Shown here in pieces: positions 53,285-62,836 of a stretch of DNA of 64,000 bases (positions are counted from its first letter, which is position 1; each line of letters opens with the position of its first letter). This DNA is from Gandjariella thermophila (GTDB lineage Bacteria; Actinomycetota; Actinomycetes; Mycobacteriales; Pseudonocardiaceae). Under the pieces are notes generated by a model. It was given only the letters and a program-made list of their open reading frames with translations, was not told the origin of the DNA and did no database searches. The translations under genes and the position numbers were made by a program. Location: assembly GCF_005405885.1 (NCBI RefSeq), contig NZ_BJFL01000017.1, positions 49,298 to 113,297 of the forward strand. The letters are read 5' to 3'.

Positions 53285-54043
53285 TTAATGGACGGGGGCG
53301 ACCGCGCCAGGCGCGGCCTGCTCGGGTGCGCGTCCGCTGGCCGCCAGGCGGCGGTGCACCAGCGCACCGAACAGCAGGCCCATGGTGGTCCACATGACCA
53401 GCTGGATGCCCAGGGAAGCCACGCGGAAGTTCCACAACACGCCGGCCGGAAAGCCCTCCGGGACCTCGTTGACGGTCGGCAACAGCAACGCACCCAGCGC
53501 TGCGGTGACGATGAACGCCGCGCCCGCGACCAGCGCCGCGTTCCAGGCACCCAGCCGGGAGACGAGCCTCCGGCCGAGATATGTCGCGGCGACCGCCAAG
53601 GCGATCGACAACGCCACCATGCCGAAGTACACGACGGTGCGTTCGTTGATCGTGTCGGGGTTACCGATCGACGGCGGGTTGGCCGGATACTTCAGAAAAG
53701 GCACCACGAACGCCGCGAGGTAGCCGCCCAGGGCCACCAGGAGCGCGGTGGCCCGCGGGCTGAGCCGACCGACGCGGCCGTAGGCCACCGCGAACGCCAG
53801 CGCGAACAGACCACCGAAAGCGACCGCGTATACCAACACGCCAGTGGCCAGGCCCAGCGTGCTCTGCACGCCCCGGCTAACCAACTCGGGATCGGGGGTC
53901 TCGCCCCTGGCGGCCTGCTCCGCCGACTCGAAATCGATCGCGGCACCGACCGAGGGCTCGCCGAAGATCCGGGCGAACACGAGCGCGAGCAGCCCCGCCA
54001 CCAAGCCGGAGAGCATGCCGCGCACCAACAACATCCTCATCAT
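53285..54043 (-). CDS. cbtA: CbtA-type cobalt transporter subunit
   Basis: The 252-residue membrane protein has about six helices and the CbtA layout: MLLVRGMLSGLVAGLLALVF at the N-terminus, GEPSVGAAIDFE, and a late NEVPEGFPAGVLWNFRVAS segment. The CbtAB family is linked to cobalt uptake and is usually B12-regulated. It lies 20 bases downstream of cbtB, and the whole operon follows a cobalamin riboswitch. ATG 54043 has GGGGGA upstream; a second ATG follows at once. Confidence 0.92.
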   Translation of the reverse strand: MMRMLLVRGMLSGLVAGLLALVFARIFGEPSVGAAIDFESAEQAARGETPDPELVSRGVQSTLGLATGVLVYAVAFGGLFALAFAVAYGRVGRLSPRATALLVALGGYLAAFVVPFLKYPANPPSIGNPDTINERTVVYFGMVALSIALAVAATYLGRRLVSRLGAWNAALVAGAAFIVTAALGALLLPTVNEVPEGFPAGVLWNFRVASLGIQLVMWTTMGLLFGALVHRRLAASGRAPEQAAPGAVAPVH

Positions 54044-54063: not shown

Positions 54064-54276
54064 TCAGTGGCAGGGGAAGCCGAGCAGGTGCCGGCCGTCA
54101 TGGACGAACTCGTGCACGTAGTGACCAGAGATCAGCGACGTGGCGCCCTGTTCGGCGCCGACGAAGTACAGCAACACCAACGCCAAGACACCGATGAACA
54201 CGGCCCAGGGCAGGATCTCCCGCACCGGGATCTGCACCGGGATCGGGGCGGGCCGGGGGGCGGAGACGACGCTCAC
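54064..54276 (-). CDS. cbtB: CbtB-type cobalt transporter subunit
   Basis: The 70-residue protein has one membrane helix (ILPWAVFIGVLALVLLYFVG) and the typical His-rich metal-binding end HYVHEFVHDGRHLLGFPCH. GTG 54276 has GAGGAGG upstream. CbtB and CbtA form a small cobalt permease. The gene is the first after the riboswitch. Confidence 0.93.
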   Translation of the reverse strand: MSVVSAPRPAPIPVQIPVREILPWAVFIGVLALVLLYFVGAEQGATSLISGHYVHEFVHDGRHLLGFPCH

Positions 54277-54533: not shown

Positions 54534-55160
54534 ATGATCACCCGACTGGTCCTGGTCTGCCACGCGTCGACCACCGCCACCCGCGCGGCACGCTTCCCCG
54601 ACGACGAGCCACTCGACACCCGTGGCGCCAGCCAGGCCGCCGCCGCGTCGGGGGCCCTGCGCCGCATCGACCAGGTGCGCTGCGGTCCGGAGCGACGCTG
54701 CCGGGAGACCGCCACCGCGTTGGGACTGCGGGACCTCGCGGTCGACTCGGCGTTGGCCGATCTCGACGTCGGCACTTGGCGTGGAAAGGGTCTGGCGGAA
54801 CTTGAGGGCACCGACCCCACCGCCTTGCATGCCTGGCTGACCGATACCTCGGCTGCGCCGCACGGCGGGGAACCGCTGCTCGACCTGCTCGCGAGAGTGG
54901 CCGGCTGGCTCGATGGTCTGCGCGCAAGCCATGGGCGCATCGTCGCGGTCACCCACGCGTCGGTCATTCGCGCCGCCGTGCTCCACGTGCTTCAGGCGCC
55001 GCCGTCCGGGTTCTGGCGGCTCGATGTGGCGCCGCTGTCCCACACCGTGCTGTCGAGCAACGGCGGCCGATGGACGGTGCGGCAGACAGGGCACCCACTC
55101 CTGACAACACCAGAGCCGCAGCCCACCACCATGGACGCGACCGGTCCTCAAGAACGCTGA
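54534..55160 (+). CDS. Histidine phosphatase family protein with altered RHG motif
   Basis: The 208-residue protein has the phosphoglycerate-mutase-like fold: CHAST near residue 9 where RHGxT is expected, RRCRETA, the second catalytic histidine in VTHASVIRAAV, and a late LSSNGG. The first Arg of the motif is Cys here and the Gly is Ala, so activity may be weak or changed. It is divergent from cbtBA. CobC-type members remove phosphate in B12 synthesis, which would fit the neighbourhood, but the altered motif leaves this open. TGGAGGAG precedes ATG 54534. Confidence 0.82.
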   Translation: MITRLVLVCHASTTATRAARFPDDEPLDTRGASQAAAASGALRRIDQVRCGPERRCRETATALGLRDLAVDSALADLDVGTWRGKGLAELEGTDPTALHAWLTDTSAAPHGGEPLLDLLARVAGWLDGLRASHGRIVAVTHASVIRAAVLHVLQAPPSGFWRLDVAPLSHTVLSSNGGRWTVRQTGHPLLTTPEPQPTTMDATGPQER

Positions 55161-56006
55161 TCTCGGCTGAGCTGAACCGCCCCGGGTTTCGCGGAGTCGG
55201 GTTTCTGGATCTCATGCCACGACGGTCGTGTTCTCGAGCCGCCGAGCGGTCACCAATGCTGGTGCGCTGCTGTCCACGCACCGATCCCGGCATCGTCACC
55301 GTGCCGCAGTGGCGGTCCCGACGTCGATCTGCACGCCCATCCGGACCGCTTCCCCGGCCTCGCCGCGCTGGCCCGCACGCGTGGCCGCGAGAGGCGCCTG
55401 GTGCGCGCACGGCCACGGTCGCGGTACCCCGAAAGGACCCGACCCGAGTCTCTTCCCGGTATATCCGGAGGGAGGAGCCATGGGCGGTGCGTCACACGGA
55501 CGCCGCCGGAATGTCTCCCTTTGCCCGAACCGAGGGCCTGGGCGTCGGCCACGCATGGTAAGACCGGGTGACCGTGGTATGTGACGCGGAACCCGTTCAG
55601 CGAATTGCCGCCCCCTTTCAGCCTACCTATTCTGAACGTGTGGATCAGCGCCGATATTCTCCCGGCGCGACACGGTGGACCCACACTTTCCCCGCGCGGC
55701 CGAAACGGGGGTGATTCGTGACGACCGGAGACGACGACGTAACCTGATCACTCATTTGTGGGCAAAACCCCACTCTCCCGCGGGTTCCGACGAGTCCGCC
55801 GGCACAACGGCAGGACCTGGGCGGTTCCCCTGCGGCGGATCCGGCTCCGAGGAGTGGCGTCGAACCCGGCGGACGTTTGCCTGATCGACTGCATCAGAAA
55901 TTTCCGCCGATCTCTCTGTTGGCTCGGCGACGTCGGGCACCAACTCCGTTCGGCGACGCCAAACCTCGTACGCCTGGCGAACAGGAACAGAATAAGGAGA
56001 ACATCA
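55161..56006. other. Long leader region upstream of the RiPP cluster
   Basis: About 850 bases between the phosphatase gene and the precursor gene. It contains one short frame with a strong ribosome site (see 55480) and probably the RiPP promoter in the AT-richer stretch near 55580-56000. No other gene is supported. Confidence 0.45.
55480..55584 (+). CDS. Possible small basic peptide upstream of the RiPP cluster
   Basis: A 34-codon frame starts at ATG 55480 directly after GGAGGGAGGAG, a near-ideal ribosome site. It encodes an Arg-rich peptide (MGGASHGRRRNVSLCPNRGP ...). Composition gives no family. It might be a leader cistron or spurious. Confidence 0.3.
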   Translation: MGGASHGRRRNVSLCPNRGPGRRPRMVRPGDRGM

Positions 56007-56168
56007 ATGTCGGAGAACCTGATCGAGTCCGTGGCTGCCCAACTGGCCCCGCCGGTGACCCGCAAACCCAGTGGCGCCGCGAGCACCGACGAGAGCGTCG
56101 GCCAGTCCATCCTCGGTATCACACTCCCCATCCTCGGCATCACGTTCGCCGACGAGGGCGACGAGTGA
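56007..56168 (+). CDS. RiPP precursor peptide with duplicated hydrophobic core
   Basis: The 53-residue peptide starts at ATG 56007 with AAGGAGA upstream. The leader, MSENLIESVAAQLAPP and a Ser/Thr-rich linker, precedes two copies of a heptad at residues 35-41 (ILGITLP) and 42-48 (ILGITFA). The acidic tail DEGDE completes it. FADEGDE resembles the FAGDDAE follower used in cyanobactins, and the hydrophobic, Gly-containing core resembles that of borosins such as omphalotin. The core has no Cys. It is followed by two PatA/PatG-type proteases and a borosin-like methyltransferase, so it is very likely the substrate of these enzymes. Confidence 0.85.
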   Translation: MSENLIESVAAQLAPPVTRKPSGAASTDESVGQSILGITLPILGITFADEGDE

Positions 56169-56205
56169 CCACCCACCGCCGGTGACGTGCCGGAAGGGGC
56201 CCGTG

Positions 56206-56250
56206 GAGTGTCGGGTGGCCGGCCGCCGGCGGCGGCCCCGCCCGGCACTC
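56206..56250 (+). terminator. Hairpin between the precursor and protease genes
   Basis: GAGTGTCGGG pairs with CCCGGCACTC (one G-U pair) around a loop that is itself self-complementary (GGCCGCCGGCGGCC). It lies 38 bases after the precursor stop and 41 bases before the first protease start. RiPP operons often have a partial terminator here, which raises precursor over enzyme expression. Confidence 0.5.
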
Positions 56251-56290
56251 CGCCCCGCCGGCCGAGGTACTCGCGAGGAGCGGCTGCGGC

Positions 56291-58195
56291 ATGTGTGAGG
56301 TGTCCCGGATCCCCGGACTGGCCCGGTTGTGGGAACGCACCCGGGGAGTGGACCGGATCGTCGTCGCGGTGGTCGACGGCCCGGTCGACGACGGCCACCC
56401 GGCCTTCCGCGGGGCATCGCTGGGCCGGCTGCCCGGCGTCTGGCCCAAGGACGAGGACCGCACGAGCGCCACGACCGCGCACGGCACGCTGGTGGCCAGC
56501 GTCCTGTTCGGTCAGCATGACGGGCCGGTCCCCGGTGTCGCGCCGCACTGCCGGGGGCTGAGCGTCCCCGTCTTCGGCCGGCGCGCGACGACGTCCCAGC
56601 TGGAGCTTGCGCGGGGCATCGAACTCGCGGTCGAGGCCGGCGCGCACGTGATCAACATCAGCGGCGGGCAGCTCAGCCCGCCGGCGGCGGCCGAGGACGC
56701 CCTGGCCCGGGCGGTCCGTTTCTGCCGGGACCGCAACGTGCTCGTGGTGGCGGCGGCCGGCAACGACGGATGCTTCTGCACGCACGTCCCGGCGGCGCTG
56801 CCCTCGGTCCTCGCGGTCGGCGCCCTCAGCGCCACGGGCCGGCCGATGACCACGAGCAACTGGGGCGCGGCCTACCAGCAACAGGGCATCCTCGCCCCCG
56901 GCGAGAACATCCTGGGAGCTGTCCCCGGCGGCGGGACGACCCGGTGCAGCGGCACCAGCCTCGCCACCCCGATCGTCGCCGGGGTCGCGGCGCTGCTGCT
57001 GAGCCTGCAGGTGCTCGCCGGCAGGGATCCCGATCCGCTCGCGGTGCGGGCGGCCCTGCTGGCCAACGCCGACCCGTGCGAATTCGATCCCGAGGAATGC
57101 GTCCGCTTCCTGTCCGGGACCTTGAACATCGAAAGAACGGTGAACGCTGTGACGACCGAACAGTTCGACGAACTGGCCGAGGCGGTTCGGAAGCAACCCT
57201 GCGGCTGTGGCTGCGACGGTACGGAGCCGGCCGCCGCGAACGTGGTTGGCGGTGACGCGCCCGCGGTGGAGGCTGCCCCCACCACCGCCGCCGACGCCGT
57301 GCCCGCCCAGCGCGGGCCGGGTGTGGTGACCTCGGCCGGTAACGCCACCGCGCAACCATGGACCCCGCTGGTGTACGCCGTCGGCGTGCTGGGCTACGAC
57401 TTCGGCACCGAGGCCCGCCGCGACTCGTTCCAGCAGTTGATGGGTCCCGCCGCGGAGAGCGGCGCCAATCCGTACGACGCGCGTCACATGGTGGAGCATC
57501 TGCGGGCGCACCCCTCCGAGGCCAGGGCGCTGATCTGGACGCTCAACCTGGAGTTGACCCCCATCTACGCGATCGAGCCCGTCGGCGCCTACGCCGCCGA
57601 CGTCTACGAGTTGCTCGTGGGACTGCTGGCCGGCGAGGTCACCGACGAGGACGACGCAGCCTTCGTCGAGCGGATCGCCGTGCCCGGCCGGCTCAGCGGC
57701 CGAACCGTCAGGCTGTTCTCCGGGCAGGTCGTGCCGGTCGTCGAGGTCGAACAGCGCCGCGGCCTGTACGGCTGGGAGGTCAACCGGCTCACCGCCGCGG
57801 CCGTGGCAGCCGTGGAAGCGGCTACCACCCGGCCCGGCGAGGTGGACGGCGCGGCGGTCGGCACGGTGCTGCGCGAGTTCCTCACGCGGGTGTACTACGA
57901 CCTGCGCAACCTCGGCGCCACCTCCCGCGACCGCGCGCTGAACTTCGCCGCCACCAACGCGTTCCAGGCCACCCAAACCCTCGCCGCCGCGCTGGGCGAG
58001 GGCATGGCGCTGGACACCATCGACGTCGAGAAGAGCCCTTTCTGCCGCCCGGACAGCGACTGCTGGGACGTGAAGCTGCGGTTCTTCGACCCGGAGAACA
58101 ACCGCCGCGCTCGGCGGGTCTACCGGTTCACCATCGACGTCAGTGACGTCCTCCCGGTCACCCTGGGCGAGGTGCGCTCGTGGTCGGAGAGCTGA
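56291..58195 (+). CDS. PatA/PatG-type S8 serine protease
   Basis: The 634-residue cytoplasmic protein has a subtilisin-like N-terminal domain with Asp29 (VAVVDGPVDD), His64 (TAHGTLVAS), Asn158 (AAGND) and Ser223 (GTSLATP). This resembles the PatA/PatG proteases that cleave and macrocyclise cyanobactins. A Cys-rich linker (CGCGCDG, residues 304-310) follows, then the PatA/PatG C-terminal domain (GVLGYDFGTEARRDSF, YAIEPVGAYAADVYELL). It starts 122 bases after the precursor stop. All catalytic residues are present, so it is the likely active protease or macrocyclase. Confidence 0.85.
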   Translation: MCEVSRIPGLARLWERTRGVDRIVVAVVDGPVDDGHPAFRGASLGRLPGVWPKDEDRTSATTAHGTLVASVLFGQHDGPVPGVAPHCRGLSVPVFGRRATTSQLELARGIELAVEAGAHVINISGGQLSPPAAAEDALARAVRFCRDRNVLVVAAAGNDGCFCTHVPAALPSVLAVGALSATGRPMTTSNWGAAYQQQGILAPGENILGAVPGGGTTRCSGTSLATPIVAGVAALLLSLQVLAGRDPDPLAVRAALLANADPCEFDPEECVRFLSGTLNIERTVNAVTTEQFDELAEAVRKQPCGCGCDGTEPAAANVVGGDAPAVEAAPTTAADAVPAQRGPGVVTSAGNATAQPWTPLVYAVGVLGYDFGTEARRDSFQQLMGPAAESGANPYDARHMVEHLRAHPSEARALIWTLNLELTPIYAIEPVGAYAADVYELLVGLLAGEVTDEDDAAFVERIAVPGRLSGRTVRLFSGQVVPVVEVEQRRGLYGWEVNRLTAAAVAAVEAATTRPGEVDGAAVGTVLREFLTRVYYDLRNLGATSRDRALNFAATNAFQATQTLAAALGEGMALDTIDVEKSPFCRPDSDCWDVKLRFFDPENNRRARRVYRFTIDVSDVLPVTLGEVRSWSES

Positions 58196-58447
58196 CGGTG
58201 CGCGGGAGCCTGCCGTGACGCCGCCCCCGCAGGCTCGCCCGGTGCGCCGACCGGACCCGATCCAGCCGCGTGGCACTCCGCACCGCGCCGCGCGGACCCG
58301 GGCGGTGTGCGGCGCGAACCCCGGTGACCCGCCGGCGTTCGCCGTTCCGAGCTACCAGCGAATGCGGGTGTCCACCGTAGACGGTGCGGCAGGCCGCCGC
58401 CTGGCCGGACCGGCACCGAGTCCCATGGCCGCCGGGCGGAGCGGACC

Positions 58448-60151
58448 GTGACCGCCATCGAGTCCATTCCCGGCGTCCGCGAGCTGTGGCGGCACACCGT
58501 CGGCGAGCCGGATGTCACGATCGGCGTGGTGGAGGGGCTGCCGGACCTGGCGCACCCGTGCTTCGCCGGGGCCGAGCTGACCGTGCTGGAGCCGTCCTGG
58601 TTACCCGCGTCGCTCACGCACGAGGTGCTCACCGAGCATGGCACGTTCGTCGCCAGCGTCCTCTTCGGACAGCACCACGGTCCGGTGCGGGGGCTGGCAC
58701 CGCGGTGCCGCGGCATCGTCGTGCCCGCCCTGCGGGACCAGGACACCGTGCTGGACCCGCTGAACGCGGCCCGCGCCATCGAGGCGCTCGTCGACGCGGG
58801 CGTCCACGTCATCCACTTCACCGCCGCCCACCCGACCCGCTCGGACGACGCCGACGACCTGCTCAAGCGGGCGGTCCGGCACGCCGAGCGGGCCGGCGTA
58901 CTCATCGTGGCGCCGACCGGAAACGACTACGGCGAGCACCGGGTGATCCCGGGCATCCTGCCCGAGGTGCTGGCGGTGGGCGCGCACCGGGACGACGGCA
59001 CGATGTTCCGGTTCAGCAACTGGGGACCGCGGTTCCGCGATCACGGCATCGTCGCCCCGGGTGACGAGCTGCGCGCGGCCGCGCCCGGTGGCGGGACCAC
59101 GGTGCACAAGGGCACCAGCATCGCCACACCGATCGTCAGCGGCGTGGCGGCCCTGCTGGTGAGCGTGCAACGGCGGCAGGGCAGAAGGCCCGACCCGCTC
59201 GCGGTGCGCGCGGCGTTGCTGGCCAGCGCCCGCCCCTGCACCCCGGCGGAGTCGCACGGCGAGCCGGACCGGTGCCTGGCCGGCCGGCTCGACGTGGCGG
59301 CGGCCACCCGGGCGGTGCTCTCCCCCGGCGTCGTCACCGCCGCGGCCGTGTCCGGTCCCCCGGTCTACGCGCTCGGTTCGCTGGGCTACGACTTCGGCAC
59401 CGAAGCCCGCCGCGACGCTTTCCGGACGCTTTTGGCCGGGCACGGCGATCCGCTCGACCCGCGGGCGGTGGCGAACCAACTCGCGGCTCGGCCCCCCGAC
59501 GCCGCCGCACTGATCTGGACCCTCGAACTCGACGGCTGCCCGGTCTACGCGATCGAACCGGTCGGCGCGTTCGCCGCGGAGGTCCACCGGGTGCTCGCCA
59601 GGCTGTTGGCCGCCCGCGACGAGGTCGACCGCGTCTGCTTGCCGGGCAGGATCAGCGGCCGCACCGCCCGGCTGCTCTCCGGCACGGTCGTGCCCACGGT
59701 GGAGATCGAGCGACCACGCGGACTGTCCAGTTGGGACGCCGGCCGGCTCACCGCCCGCGCAACCGCAGCCCTGCCGGATCCCGACGCGCAGCGGGCCCGG
59801 CAGGCCCTGCGGGAACTCCTCGCCCGGATCGTCCACGACTGCCGCAACCTGGGCACCACCGCGCGTGACCGGGCGCTCAACTTCGCGGCCACCAACGCCG
59901 TCCAGGCCGGGTCCGCACTGGCCGCGGCCGCGGTCGACGGGTACGTGCTGGACGGCATCGCGGTGGCACCCAGCCCGTTCGGTCGCGCCGGCCGCGACTG
60001 CTGGGACGTCCGGTTCCGCCTCGTCGACCCGGACAACAACCAGCGCGCCCGGCGAGTCTGCCGGTTCACCGTCGACGTCAGCGACCCGCTTCCCCTGCCC
60101 GTGGGCGAGGTACGCACCTGGTTGGAAACCCGAGGAAAGGAGTCTCCATGA
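58448..60151 (+). CDS. Second PatA/PatG-type protease with Asp replaced by Glu
   Basis: The 567-residue paralogue of the preceding protease has the same two-domain layout and a similar C-terminal domain (GSLGYDFGTEARRDAF, YAIEPVGAFAAEVHRVL). His64 (EHGTFVAS), Asn159 (PTGND) and Ser224 (GTSIATP) are kept, but the catalytic Asp is Glu29 (GVVEGLPD). It also lacks the Cys-rich linker. Either it is a slow protease or an inactive partner of the first. The GTG at 58448 is preceded by GGCGGAG. Its stop overlaps the methyltransferase ATG. Confidence 0.85.
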   Translation: MTAIESIPGVRELWRHTVGEPDVTIGVVEGLPDLAHPCFAGAELTVLEPSWLPASLTHEVLTEHGTFVASVLFGQHHGPVRGLAPRCRGIVVPALRDQDTVLDPLNAARAIEALVDAGVHVIHFTAAHPTRSDDADDLLKRAVRHAERAGVLIVAPTGNDYGEHRVIPGILPEVLAVGAHRDDGTMFRFSNWGPRFRDHGIVAPGDELRAAAPGGGTTVHKGTSIATPIVSGVAALLVSVQRRQGRRPDPLAVRAALLASARPCTPAESHGEPDRCLAGRLDVAAATRAVLSPGVVTAAAVSGPPVYALGSLGYDFGTEARRDAFRTLLAGHGDPLDPRAVANQLAARPPDAAALIWTLELDGCPVYAIEPVGAFAAEVHRVLARLLAARDEVDRVCLPGRISGRTARLLSGTVVPTVEIERPRGLSSWDAGRLTARATAALPDPDAQRARQALRELLARIVHDCRNLGTTARDRALNFAATNAVQAGSALAAAAVDGYVLDGIAVAPSPFGRAGRDCWDVRFRLVDPDNNQRARRVCRFTVDVSDPLPLPVGEVRTWLETRGKESP

Positions 60152-60972
60152 CCGCAAGCGAGGCGCCGGGCCGGGCCGGTGAGGTGACCGTCCCGTGGAA
60201 CCTGGTCGTCCCCGAGGCCGATGTGTACCTGGTGGGCTACGGGATGCGGCTGCCCAACGACTTCACTCTCGAAGCGCTGGCCGTGCTGAAACGCTGTACG
60301 CGCGTGTTCGGCATCCCGCCCATCCACGCCCCCGACTTCGGGCTGCCCGCCATGGAGAACCTGTTCCTGCGCTACGCGCCGGACAAGGACCGGCAGCGCA
60401 CCTACCAGGAGTGGCTGGACACCGTCCTGGACGCCGCCGCGCAGCAGCCGCCGGTGGCACTGGCCACCTACGGCAGCGCGATGGTCGGCGCCCTGGTCAG
60501 CCACCGCGTCCTCGCCGAGGCCCCGGGGCGCGGCCTCACCGTCCACGTCACCGGAGGAACGTCCTCATTGGACGGGATCTGGGCCGATCTCAACATCGAA
60601 CCCTTCTACGGCCTGGAAATCTGGGAAGCGACCCTCTTCGTGCGGCAGAAGATCGAACCCAACACGCGGGCCAACCTCATGCTGCCTCAAGCCCCACTCT
60701 TCGGCGTACACCACGGCCCCGACCTCACCGCGGGCATCACCATGGAGACCAGTTCGACCATCGCCGCGCTGCGGGACCACCTGCTGCGGTTCTACCCGCC
60801 GAGCCACCCGGTGCGGTATGTGCAGACCACGTCGGGAACCCAGCTCGCCGGGCCCAGCATCGAAACGCTGCCGCTCGCCGAGCTGGACCACCCGGGAAGC
60901 CACACGATGAGCACCCTGTTCGTGCCCCGCCGCACTGTCCACGACGACCTCGACTTCCCGGGCCGTGCCTAG
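60148..60972 (+). CDS. Borosin-like alpha-N-methyltransferase (tetrapyrrole methylase fold)
   Basis: The 274-residue protein starts at ATG 60148 (AAAGGAG upstream), overlapping the protease stop. Its order of segments matches the catalytic domain of the fungal borosin enzyme OphMA: VYLVGYGMRL and LEALAVLK, the RxxTY-type segment DRQRTYQEW with Arg84 and Tyr86, ATYGS with Tyr108, VHVTGGTSSLDGIWADLNI, and TLFVPRR at the end. OphMA methylates peptide backbone nitrogens. Here substrate and enzyme are separate genes, a split borosin layout. The likely substrate is the 53-residue precursor. Other tetrapyrrole methylases are less similar in the central part. Confidence 0.82.
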   Translation: MTASEAPGRAGEVTVPWNLVVPEADVYLVGYGMRLPNDFTLEALAVLKRCTRVFGIPPIHAPDFGLPAMENLFLRYAPDKDRQRTYQEWLDTVLDAAAQQPPVALATYGSAMVGALVSHRVLAEAPGRGLTVHVTGGTSSLDGIWADLNIEPFYGLEIWEATLFVRQKIEPNTRANLMLPQAPLFGVHHGPDLTAGITMETSSTIAALRDHLLRFYPPSHPVRYVQTTSGTQLAGPSIETLPLAELDHPGSHTMSTLFVPRRTVHDDLDFPGRA

Positions 60973-61643: not shown

Positions 61644-61754
61644 CAGGCCCGACCATCCATCAGCATGCTGATGGATGATACGAACTTCTGCTATTGGTCG
61701 CTGATACCTCGCCGGATCTAGCGTGGTGCCCACAGCGGCTGACAGGAGACGACG

Positions 61755-62505
61755 TGGACCAGAAGATCGTCACCGCGCGCCTCGACATCCCGGTGCCCGG
61801 CGCGCCCGACTCGCCGATGGGCGCCTACCTCGCCCGTCCGGCCGCATCGGGGCGGCGTCCCGCGGTGCTCGTCGGATTCGGGATGTTCGGGCTGACCGGT
61901 TACGTCCGCAATCTGACCGAGCGGATCGCGCGGCTCGGATACGTCGCGGTCGCGCCGGACTTCTACCACCGTGCCGGACCGGGCATCGAACTCGCCGGCA
62001 CCGACGAGGGCCGGCGCCGGGGACTCGAACTGGGCGGCGCGCTCGGCCGCGCCGACGCCCTGGCGGACGTGCGGGCCACCATCGATCAGCTCCGCGACCG
62101 GGAACCCGTGACGGAGCGCATCGGTATGGTCGGGTGCAGCTTCGGTGGGCACATCGCATACCTCGCCGCCACCCAGCTCGACCTCGCGGGCGACCGCGGT
62201 GTTCTACCCGGGCTGGCTCACCGGTACCGACATCGCGCTCAGCCGGCCGGAACCGACCGTCACGCTGACTGCCGGCATCGCCGGCCGGTTGCTCTTCCTG
62301 ACCGGCGAGGACGACCACCTGGTGACCGCCGATCAGGTCCGGCAGATCATCGGCCACCTCGCCGACGCCGGCGTGCGCCACGAGATGGTCGTCTATCCCG
62401 ACACGCCGTACGGGTTCTTCTGCGAGGAGCGCGACACGTTCCGCCAAGCCCGCCGACGACGCGTGGCGCCACATCCGCGACCTGCTCGCCGCGGAGTTGG
62501 CCTGA
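61755..62505 (+). pseudogene. Dienelactone hydrolase-family gene with two frameshifts
   Basis: GTG 61755 opens a frame (DQKIVTARLDIPVPGAPD) through GMVGCSFGGHIAYLAATQLD, which holds a GxSxGG-type nucleophile elbow with Cys in place of the first Gly-adjacent position. The product continues after a first shift near 62195 (TAVFYPGWLTGTD ... DDHLVTADQVRQIIGHLADA) and a second near 62450 (ADDAWRHIRDLLAAELA) to a stop at 62503. Each shift needs one base. It is a decayed member of a family that opens lactone rings in aromatic degradation. Confidence 0.78.
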
Positions 62506-62518
62506 CCGTCCGGCGACA

Positions 62519-62836
62519 TCACCTCGGCAGTGGGCTGGTCGTCCACTTCGGAGTGTCGTCCGGCGACGTATCCGCCCACTCCGCGCCGGTCAAGCCGGTG
62601 ACCGAGGTGGTCTCGAAGGGATGGCCACCGTCGTCGATGACCTTCGACTTCGTGGTGCCGCCGTCGATCCAGCTCAACGTGGCGTTCCAGGTGCAGTCGC
62701 AGTGCTCCATCTGCACGTCGATCACCAGCGCCTCCGGATCGTTCGCCGTCGCGGTGTACGGGAATTTCAGGGCATCCGCACGGACGTCTTCCGGAAGGGC
62801 CTTCGTGGGCAGCCAGTAGGGCGGCGGGGTGTCCAG
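62519..62836 (-). pseudogene. C-terminal fragment of an unrecognised protein
   Basis: The minus-strand frame reads SPPYWLPTKALPEDVRADAL through HCDCTWNATLSWIDGGTT and ends WTTSPLPR. It is cut at its 5' side where transposase sequence begins. The Cys pair and balanced composition mark a real protein of unknown function. Confidence 0.5.

Follow-up and report, generated by a model that had tools for sequence, protein, structure and literature searches.

We analysed a 64,000-nucleotide stretch of the Gandjariella thermophila genome (contig NZ_BJFL01000017.1, positions 49,298 to 113,297; hereafter the window), which holds a compact five-gene operon that we read as a probable cluster for a ribosomally synthesized and post-translationally modified peptide (RiPP). 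All five genes lie on the + strand. The first encodes a 53-residue precursor peptide (56007..56168; MSENLIESVAAQLAPPVTRKPSGAASTDESVGQSILGITLPILGITFADEGDE), recognised from a profile of 10 relatives and an alignment of 11 precursors, and a ribosome-binding-site-like AAGGAG (55994..55999, +) can be read directly in the sequence 7 bases before its ATG. There follow protease A (56291..58195; 634 residues), a subtilisin of PatA type that also carries PatG_D and PatG_C domains and has the catalytic residues D29, H64, N158 and S223; a 78-residue PatB/AcyB/McaB-like protein (58215..58451); protease B (58448..60151; 567 residues), a PatA/PatG-family subtilisin in which Glu (E29) replaces the catalytic Asp but H64, N159 and S224 are kept; and a 274-residue borosin-type alpha-N-methyltransferase (60148..60972), identified by PDB sequence, profile and fold searches and by residue counts. 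The PatB-like open reading frame (ORF) overlaps the protease B gene by 4 bases, and the methyltransferase gene starts within the end of the latter (ATGA). The five-gene order is identical in Actinomadura craniellae (L005) and Nonomuraea rhizosphaerae (L004).

An earlier note on this DNA, made from the sequence alone, had described four ORFs, overlapping or closely spaced and pointing in one direction; all four lie on the + strand where it placed them, and the gene that it overlooked is the one for the PatB-like protein. A profile built from the corresponding proteins of three relatives matches this small ORF with an E value of 5.7e-9 (best domain 8e-8, with some compositional bias), the next match being at 0.61. 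The note's remark that no YcaO, LanM or radical S-adenosylmethionine (SAM) gene is present is borne out for the operon's proteins, to which the model scan was limited: no such model scored over its cut-off, and a radical SAM match in protease B stayed below it (E 0.074).

The methyltransferase and its relatives

The methyltransferase (METHYLTRANSFERASE) matches PF00590 with 45.5 bits (cut-off 27.8), and its best NCBIfam match is YabN, at 40.5 bits against a cut-off of 525. Both matches would suit a corrin or other tetrapyrrole (TP) methylase that merely lies beside a protease-only cyanobactin-like cluster, as would the genes just upstream: those for the cobalt transporter subunits CbtA (53285-54043) and CbtB (54064-54276), on the - strand, and for a histidine phosphatase (54534-55157, +) that adjoins the cluster and has a sub-cut-off CobC match. 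Borosin enzymes, however, rank first by sequence, profile and fold. All 25 matches at E<=1 in a PDB sequence search are borosin enzymes, with SonM at the top (4.1e-17). In a PDB search with a profile of 25 homologues, the best 60 of 100 matches include borosins from 2.6e-26 to 3.7e-12 (SonM 2.6e-26, OphMA-type chains 2e-18 to 2e-14, MroMA about 3.6e-12), and the first non-borosin family among them, diphthine synthase, appears at E 0.016. For an AlphaFold model of the protein (pLDDT, the predicted local distance difference test score, 82.1), the best 50 of 464 fold matches are all borosin enzymes, with SonM leading at 6.1e-19. Moreover, the order of precursor, proteases and methyltransferase is kept in L005 and L004, and the gene shares its ATGA overlap with protease B. 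Seven further PF00590 matches occur in the genome, and five of these stand together within 13 kb on contig C8, so that a tetrapyrrole pathway can be accounted for without the window's enzyme; the CbtA, CbtB and histidine phosphatase genes sit away from that group. We regard the tetrapyrrole explanation as so improbable as to be nearly negligible and, from sequence and predicted structure, place the enzyme in the borosin family. The OphMA/borosin likeness proposed in the earlier note is thereby upheld, and the grouping with corrin or diphthine methylases that the note had named as telling against it does not appear.

Three residues of SonM, R67, Y71 and Y93, correspond in the PDB search alignment to R82, Y86 and Y108 of the window enzyme, and the three occur together in 94/120 homologues among the matches listed. 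In SonM, R67K and Y71F lower kcat/KM about 100-fold, Y58F about 14-fold and Y93F 1.6-fold (PMC8429565, excerpt).

Strong homologues of the methyltransferase are rare. Among 100 relatives there were three matches, a strong one in the genome itself and two others at E 5.3e-14 and 3.0e-4. The class sample gave one in 394 genomes and the phylum sample one in 396 (in both cases the window's own genome), and the family of the Actinomadura genome gave one in 297 (that genome itself); these three counts are lower bounds, with 6 to 8 candidates per genome scored, among the rows listed, under strict E limits. A protein database yielded 138 homologues, and the sources of the best 120, which were listed, include Amycolatopsis, Streptomyces, Nonomuraea, Actinomadura, Spirillospora, Kineosporia, Solirubrobacteraceae, Chloroflexota and Rhodovulum. 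Twelve contig sizes are common to two or three different listed homologues (for instance P0058, P0067 and P0078, or P0060, P0080 and P0118), and some clusters probably hold two or three borosin-type methyltransferases. Downstream of the operon lies a dienelactone hydrolase gene (61754-62546, +) whose PF01738 match is divided over two reading frames, the result of a frameshift or a sequencing error.

The precursor family and the two proteases

A profile from three precursors found 10 proteins, those three included, to which the precursor of a Saccharopolyspora locus (L026, genome G1232) was added to give 11. Most of the 10 precursors other than the window's were found with a profile that includes it, and the set is not fully independent. 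Because a profile of those 10 alone matches the window precursor at E 6.8e-18, with the next match among the window's 979 stop-to-stop segments at 0.41, we conclude from sequence comparison that this is not a chance ORF. The earlier note had named the lack of a precursor-like peptide in related genomes as an outcome that would tell against it; relatives do carry one at the same site.

A cyanobactin-like layout of conserved leader, variable core and conserved flanks is present in the 11 precursors. Mean pairwise identity is 68% over the leader (residues 1-19, 56007..56063, +; MSENLIESVAAQLAPPVTR), 32% over the next 15 columns, 22% over the core and 66% over the tail. Ahead of the core stands SVGQS (56094..56108, +), whose G32 is invariant in 11/11 precursors; it resembles the recognition sequence II (RSII) of cyanobactins (PMC10885120, excerpt), and by this analogy cleavage would follow its final Ser. 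The hypervariable block of the alignment gives the putative core ILGITLPILGIT (residues 35-46, 56109..56144, +), after which comes the RSIII-like follower FADEGDE (56145..56165, +). The tails of the family, which resemble FAxDDxE, are FADEGDE, FAGDDDD (twice), FAGDDDE, AAGDDDE, FAADDAE, FAADEAE, FADE, FAGDDQE, FAGDEQE and FAADDDD, and the flanks presumably serve as recognition sequences. Putative cores elsewhere in the family include MMCVMPMM, IPLAFPLP and LAVAFLAVPPC, as well as less hydrophobic ones such as TQGNPGHT; Pro stands at the presumed C-terminal end of the core in 1/11 precursors. TIGR04446, which models anacyclamide/piricyclamide precursors, picks up four of the 11 (P0126 at E 8.8e-5, P0125 at 0.0036, P0124 at 0.0084 and P0122 at 0.088), all under its cut-off of 35 bits, the best of them, a relative, with 22.8; the other seven, the window's included, gave no match to it. 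A short motif is common to the PatB-like protein (APPVRRP in L004 and L026, ARPVRRP in the window) and the precursor leader (APPVTR), and may be a common docking signal.

The duplicated hydrophobic heptad on which the earlier note had built a product of 7 or 14 residues (ILGITLP / ILGITFA) is indeed present. It has no counterpart in the other precursors of the family, however, and the last two residues of the second copy are the conserved FA with which the tail begins. With 12 residues left between the recognition-like sequences, the alignment makes a core of about that length more likely than one of 7 or 14.

Proteases A and B both combine S8, PatG_D and PatG_C domains and score over the TIGR03895 cut-off of 421 (781.9 and 553.4 bits), in keeping with the note's claim of two subtilisin-like PatA/PatG-type proteases. 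In the PDB, A is nearest to PagA/PatA (the cyanobactin protease PagA, 4h6w, at 1.6e-98), and PagA is also the best match of B (5.2e-78); PatG is matched more strongly by B (2.8e-63) than by A (7.2e-50). The alignment of PatG to B falls into two parts, which pair B 5-52 with residues 15-62 of the PatG chain and B 51-291 with 96-340, so that about 35 PatG residues between the acid and the His have no counterpart in B. From this alignment we take the extra residues to be the "macrocyclization insert", the two helices so called in PatG (PMC4663559, excerpt), to which the AYDG tail binds and so screens the acyl-enzyme from water (PMC10043927, excerpt). The spacing from acid to His is 35 in window A, window B and the two cyanobacterial A proteins compared, 34 to 45 in the other actinobacterial and Chloroflexota proteins aligned, and 70 in PatG (D548, H618; PMC4979651); B is without the two-helix insert of the cyanobactin G proteases.

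Overall, 1099 of 7996 candidates scored matched protease B, and at E<=1e-50 it has matches in 4/249 genomes of its family, one of them the Saccharopolyspora genome of L026. Of the 120 relatives listed, 24 share its Glu at the acid position, and His, Asn and Ser are kept in all 120. A tree of 59 rows unites the cyanobacterial A proteins with those of A type from the window and from L004, L005 and L026 (14 rows, support 100/99) and sets the B-type proteins apart in a clade of their own (43 rows, 100/99). Within the tree, 23 of the 24 Glu proteins form a single clade with the L005 B protein (24 rows, 98/95), which argues that Glu is a conserved feature rather than a mark of decay; the remaining one, P0171, lies outside on a long branch. 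The partner of PatG, whose branch is likewise long, is P0175, and the pair falls between the A-type and B-type groups; orthology of B to PatG is therefore not established. Immediately after the cyanobactin-like genes of the Saccharopolyspora locus comes a third ORF (L026 6091-7641, -) that looks subtilisin-like on reading by eye. A Gloeothece protein annotated as a PatA/PatG protease (L016 14080-16479) matches no PDB subtilisin at E<=1e-20; its matches are to a SAM-methyltransferase and to the C-terminal domain of PatG, and its annotation looks misleading.

These features of B bear on whether the product is a ring. The earlier note had suggested a possibly cyclic peptide, and B could in principle act as a macrocyclase, joining the new N-terminus to the core's C-terminus as it removes FADEGDE. 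The insert of PatG is missing in B, however, with E29 and H64 at half the PatG spacing; Glu replaces the catalytic Asp; and PatG requires Pro or thiazoline at the core's C-terminus (PMC5708355, excerpt), where this family seldom has Pro. The suggestion is unsupported by these data, and we consider head-to-tail closure rather unlikely, though a credible competitor.

Source contigs of exactly equal size served as a proxy for linkage. By this proxy, 16/120 listed proteases pair with one of the 120 listed methyltransferases (the window's own included), against a mean of 0.5 and a maximum of 4 in 2000 rounds of a control with jittered sizes; the 16 include 8 of the 24 proteases with Glu, and 5/10 precursors likewise pair with a methyltransferase (the window's and two loci included). 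The methyltransferase-linked proteases are scattered among the rest in the B tree. This scatter fits a methyltransferase that is an exchangeable tailoring module, with the limit that its absence is not readable from short contigs.

The proposed pathway and its weighing

We favour, with a probability of about 0.68, a five-gene ribosomal-peptide cluster in which backbone amides of the core are methylated and the peptide, short and hydrophobic, is then released by the proteases. The best reading of the sequence comparisons is a heterocyclase-free, anacyclamide-like chassis with a split-borosin-type methyltransferase. The precursor would be bound through its cyanobactin-like leader rather than through a borosin-binding domain; the methyltransferase would place several N-methyl groups on ILGITLPILGIT, likely on backbone amides and before protease release; protease A would cleave after SVGQS to free the N-terminus, and protease B before FADEGDE to free the C-terminus. 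Since B is without the macrocyclisation insert, a linear product, N-methylated and about 12 residues long, is somewhat more likely than a ring, and the scarcity of a C-terminal Pro likewise favours hydrolysis by B. The calculated [M+H]+ is 1223.80 for the linear unmethylated core and 1205.79 for the ring, plus 14.016 per methyl. What stands of the earlier note's proposal is the combination of a borosin-type methyltransferase with PatA/PatG proteases in one operon; its product size and cyclisation are unsupported.

A more radical possibility is a hybrid of "methylated cyanobactins", in which N-methyl tertiary amides would replace the C-terminal Pro or azoline and the insert-less, Glu-triad protease B would be a new transamidase that closes N-methylated rings. 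If true, backbone N-methylation and ring closure would be mechanistically coupled, but we think this quite improbable.

Several observations weigh against the methylation-and-release pathway that we favour. SonM Y58, which aids catalysis (Y58F drops kcat 15-fold; PMC8429565, excerpt), corresponds to F73 in the window enzyme, a position that holds L or M in 79/120 homologues among the matches listed. The borosin-binding domain of SonA is a five-helix unit of residues 1-53 (PMC8429565, excerpt); the window precursor, with 53 residues in total and residues 1-34 ahead of the putative core, has no room for one, and enzyme and substrate would therefore pair differently. No Pfam or NCBIfam model matches the window precursor, and the cut points of core and tail were placed by the family alignment and by cyanobactin precedent (PMC10885120 and PMC4663559, excerpts). 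Equal contig size is only a proxy for linkage, and the Saccharopolyspora genome, whose cluster is Glu-type, gave no borosin-type methyltransferase (best match E 0.595). Asp is kept in 96/120 listed relatives where protease B has Glu, and the substitution might make B slow or inactive. Finally, under TIGR04220 (cut-off 55 bits) the PatB-like proteins of L005 and L004 score 92.7 and 62.9 bits and the window's only 19.4; in a whole-genome scan the window's scored 13.5 bits (E 0.39), against 92.1, 61.8 and 30.9 bits for the relatives (the last in the L026 genome), and sub-cut-off matches also occur in 5/14 control genomes. The low PatB score and E29 would both suit a cluster that is decaying or silent, with its catalytic Asp lost, a degenerate PatB and no product. 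Against such decay, the ORFs are intact and the Glu, with His, Asn and Ser preserved around it, is shared by a well-supported clade, and we consider it very improbable.

As far as we have seen, each kind of enzyme here is known, and what appears to be new is their combination, together with a short-leader substrate for a borosin enzyme and a Glu-type, insert-less protease. We recognised no description of borosin-type methylation with PatA/PatG proteases in the open-access literature, a scope that excludes the main split-borosin surveys (Imani 2022, Cho 2022) and Crone 2023; the earlier note's statement that no such gene set had been described holds within that scope, and a prior description elsewhere is possible. 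Backbone N-methylation improves the membrane permeability and stability of peptides (PMC8429565, excerpt), and few mature borosins are known for want of a specific peptidase (PMC11395268, excerpt). If our reading is true, a compact operon that brings together short, variable cores, a stand-alone backbone N-methyltransferase and dedicated proteases to release the product would fill that gap; it would also be a case of two RiPP classes recombining naturally, in which a cyanobactin chassis found outside the cyanobacteria has taken on the methyltransferase as a module that can be exchanged.

Comparison with known systems

Saccharopolyspora L026 has the same chassis, with a related precursor that ends in the tail FAADDDD, an A protease, a PatB-like protein and a Glu-type B protease, and differs from the window in that no borosin-type methyltransferase was found in its genome. 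These are probably the published cyanobactin-like genes of Saccharopolyspora NFXS83 (PMC10145562, excerpt).

The acy and sph clusters (anacyclamide, piricyclamide, sphaerocyclamide) likewise have an A protease, a second PatA/PatG-family protease and a short precursor whose variable core follows a leader and is flanked by recognition sequences (PMC4663559 and PMC6162287, excerpts); their PatB-family protein probably corresponds to the PatB-like protein of the window. The earlier note had taken the missing YcaO gene as a departure from cyanobactins, but it is no distinction, since the anacyclamide and sphaerocyclamide clusters are themselves described without a heterocyclase (in excerpts of the same two papers). 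The differences lie elsewhere: the window cluster is actinobacterial, its five genes include a borosin-type methyltransferase instead of a prenyltransferase, its protease B has Glu for Asp and is without the macrocyclisation insert, and the cores of its family seldom end in Pro.

With the type IV split borosins (SonM-SonA of Shewanella; PMC8429565, excerpt), the window shares a stand-alone alpha-N-methyltransferase of the same fold, a separate precursor and the equivalents of R67, Y71 and Y93. It differs in having Phe for Y58, a precursor too short for the five-helix borosin-binding domain, and PatA/PatG-family proteases with a PatB-like protein. The fungal enzyme OphMA, of the omphalotin borosins, is homologous to the window enzyme in its catalytic domain (profile E 2e-18 to 2e-14), whereas it bears its own core fused at the C-terminus (PMC11285071, excerpt), and the omphalotin ring is closed by the serine peptidase OphP (PMC12235650, excerpt).

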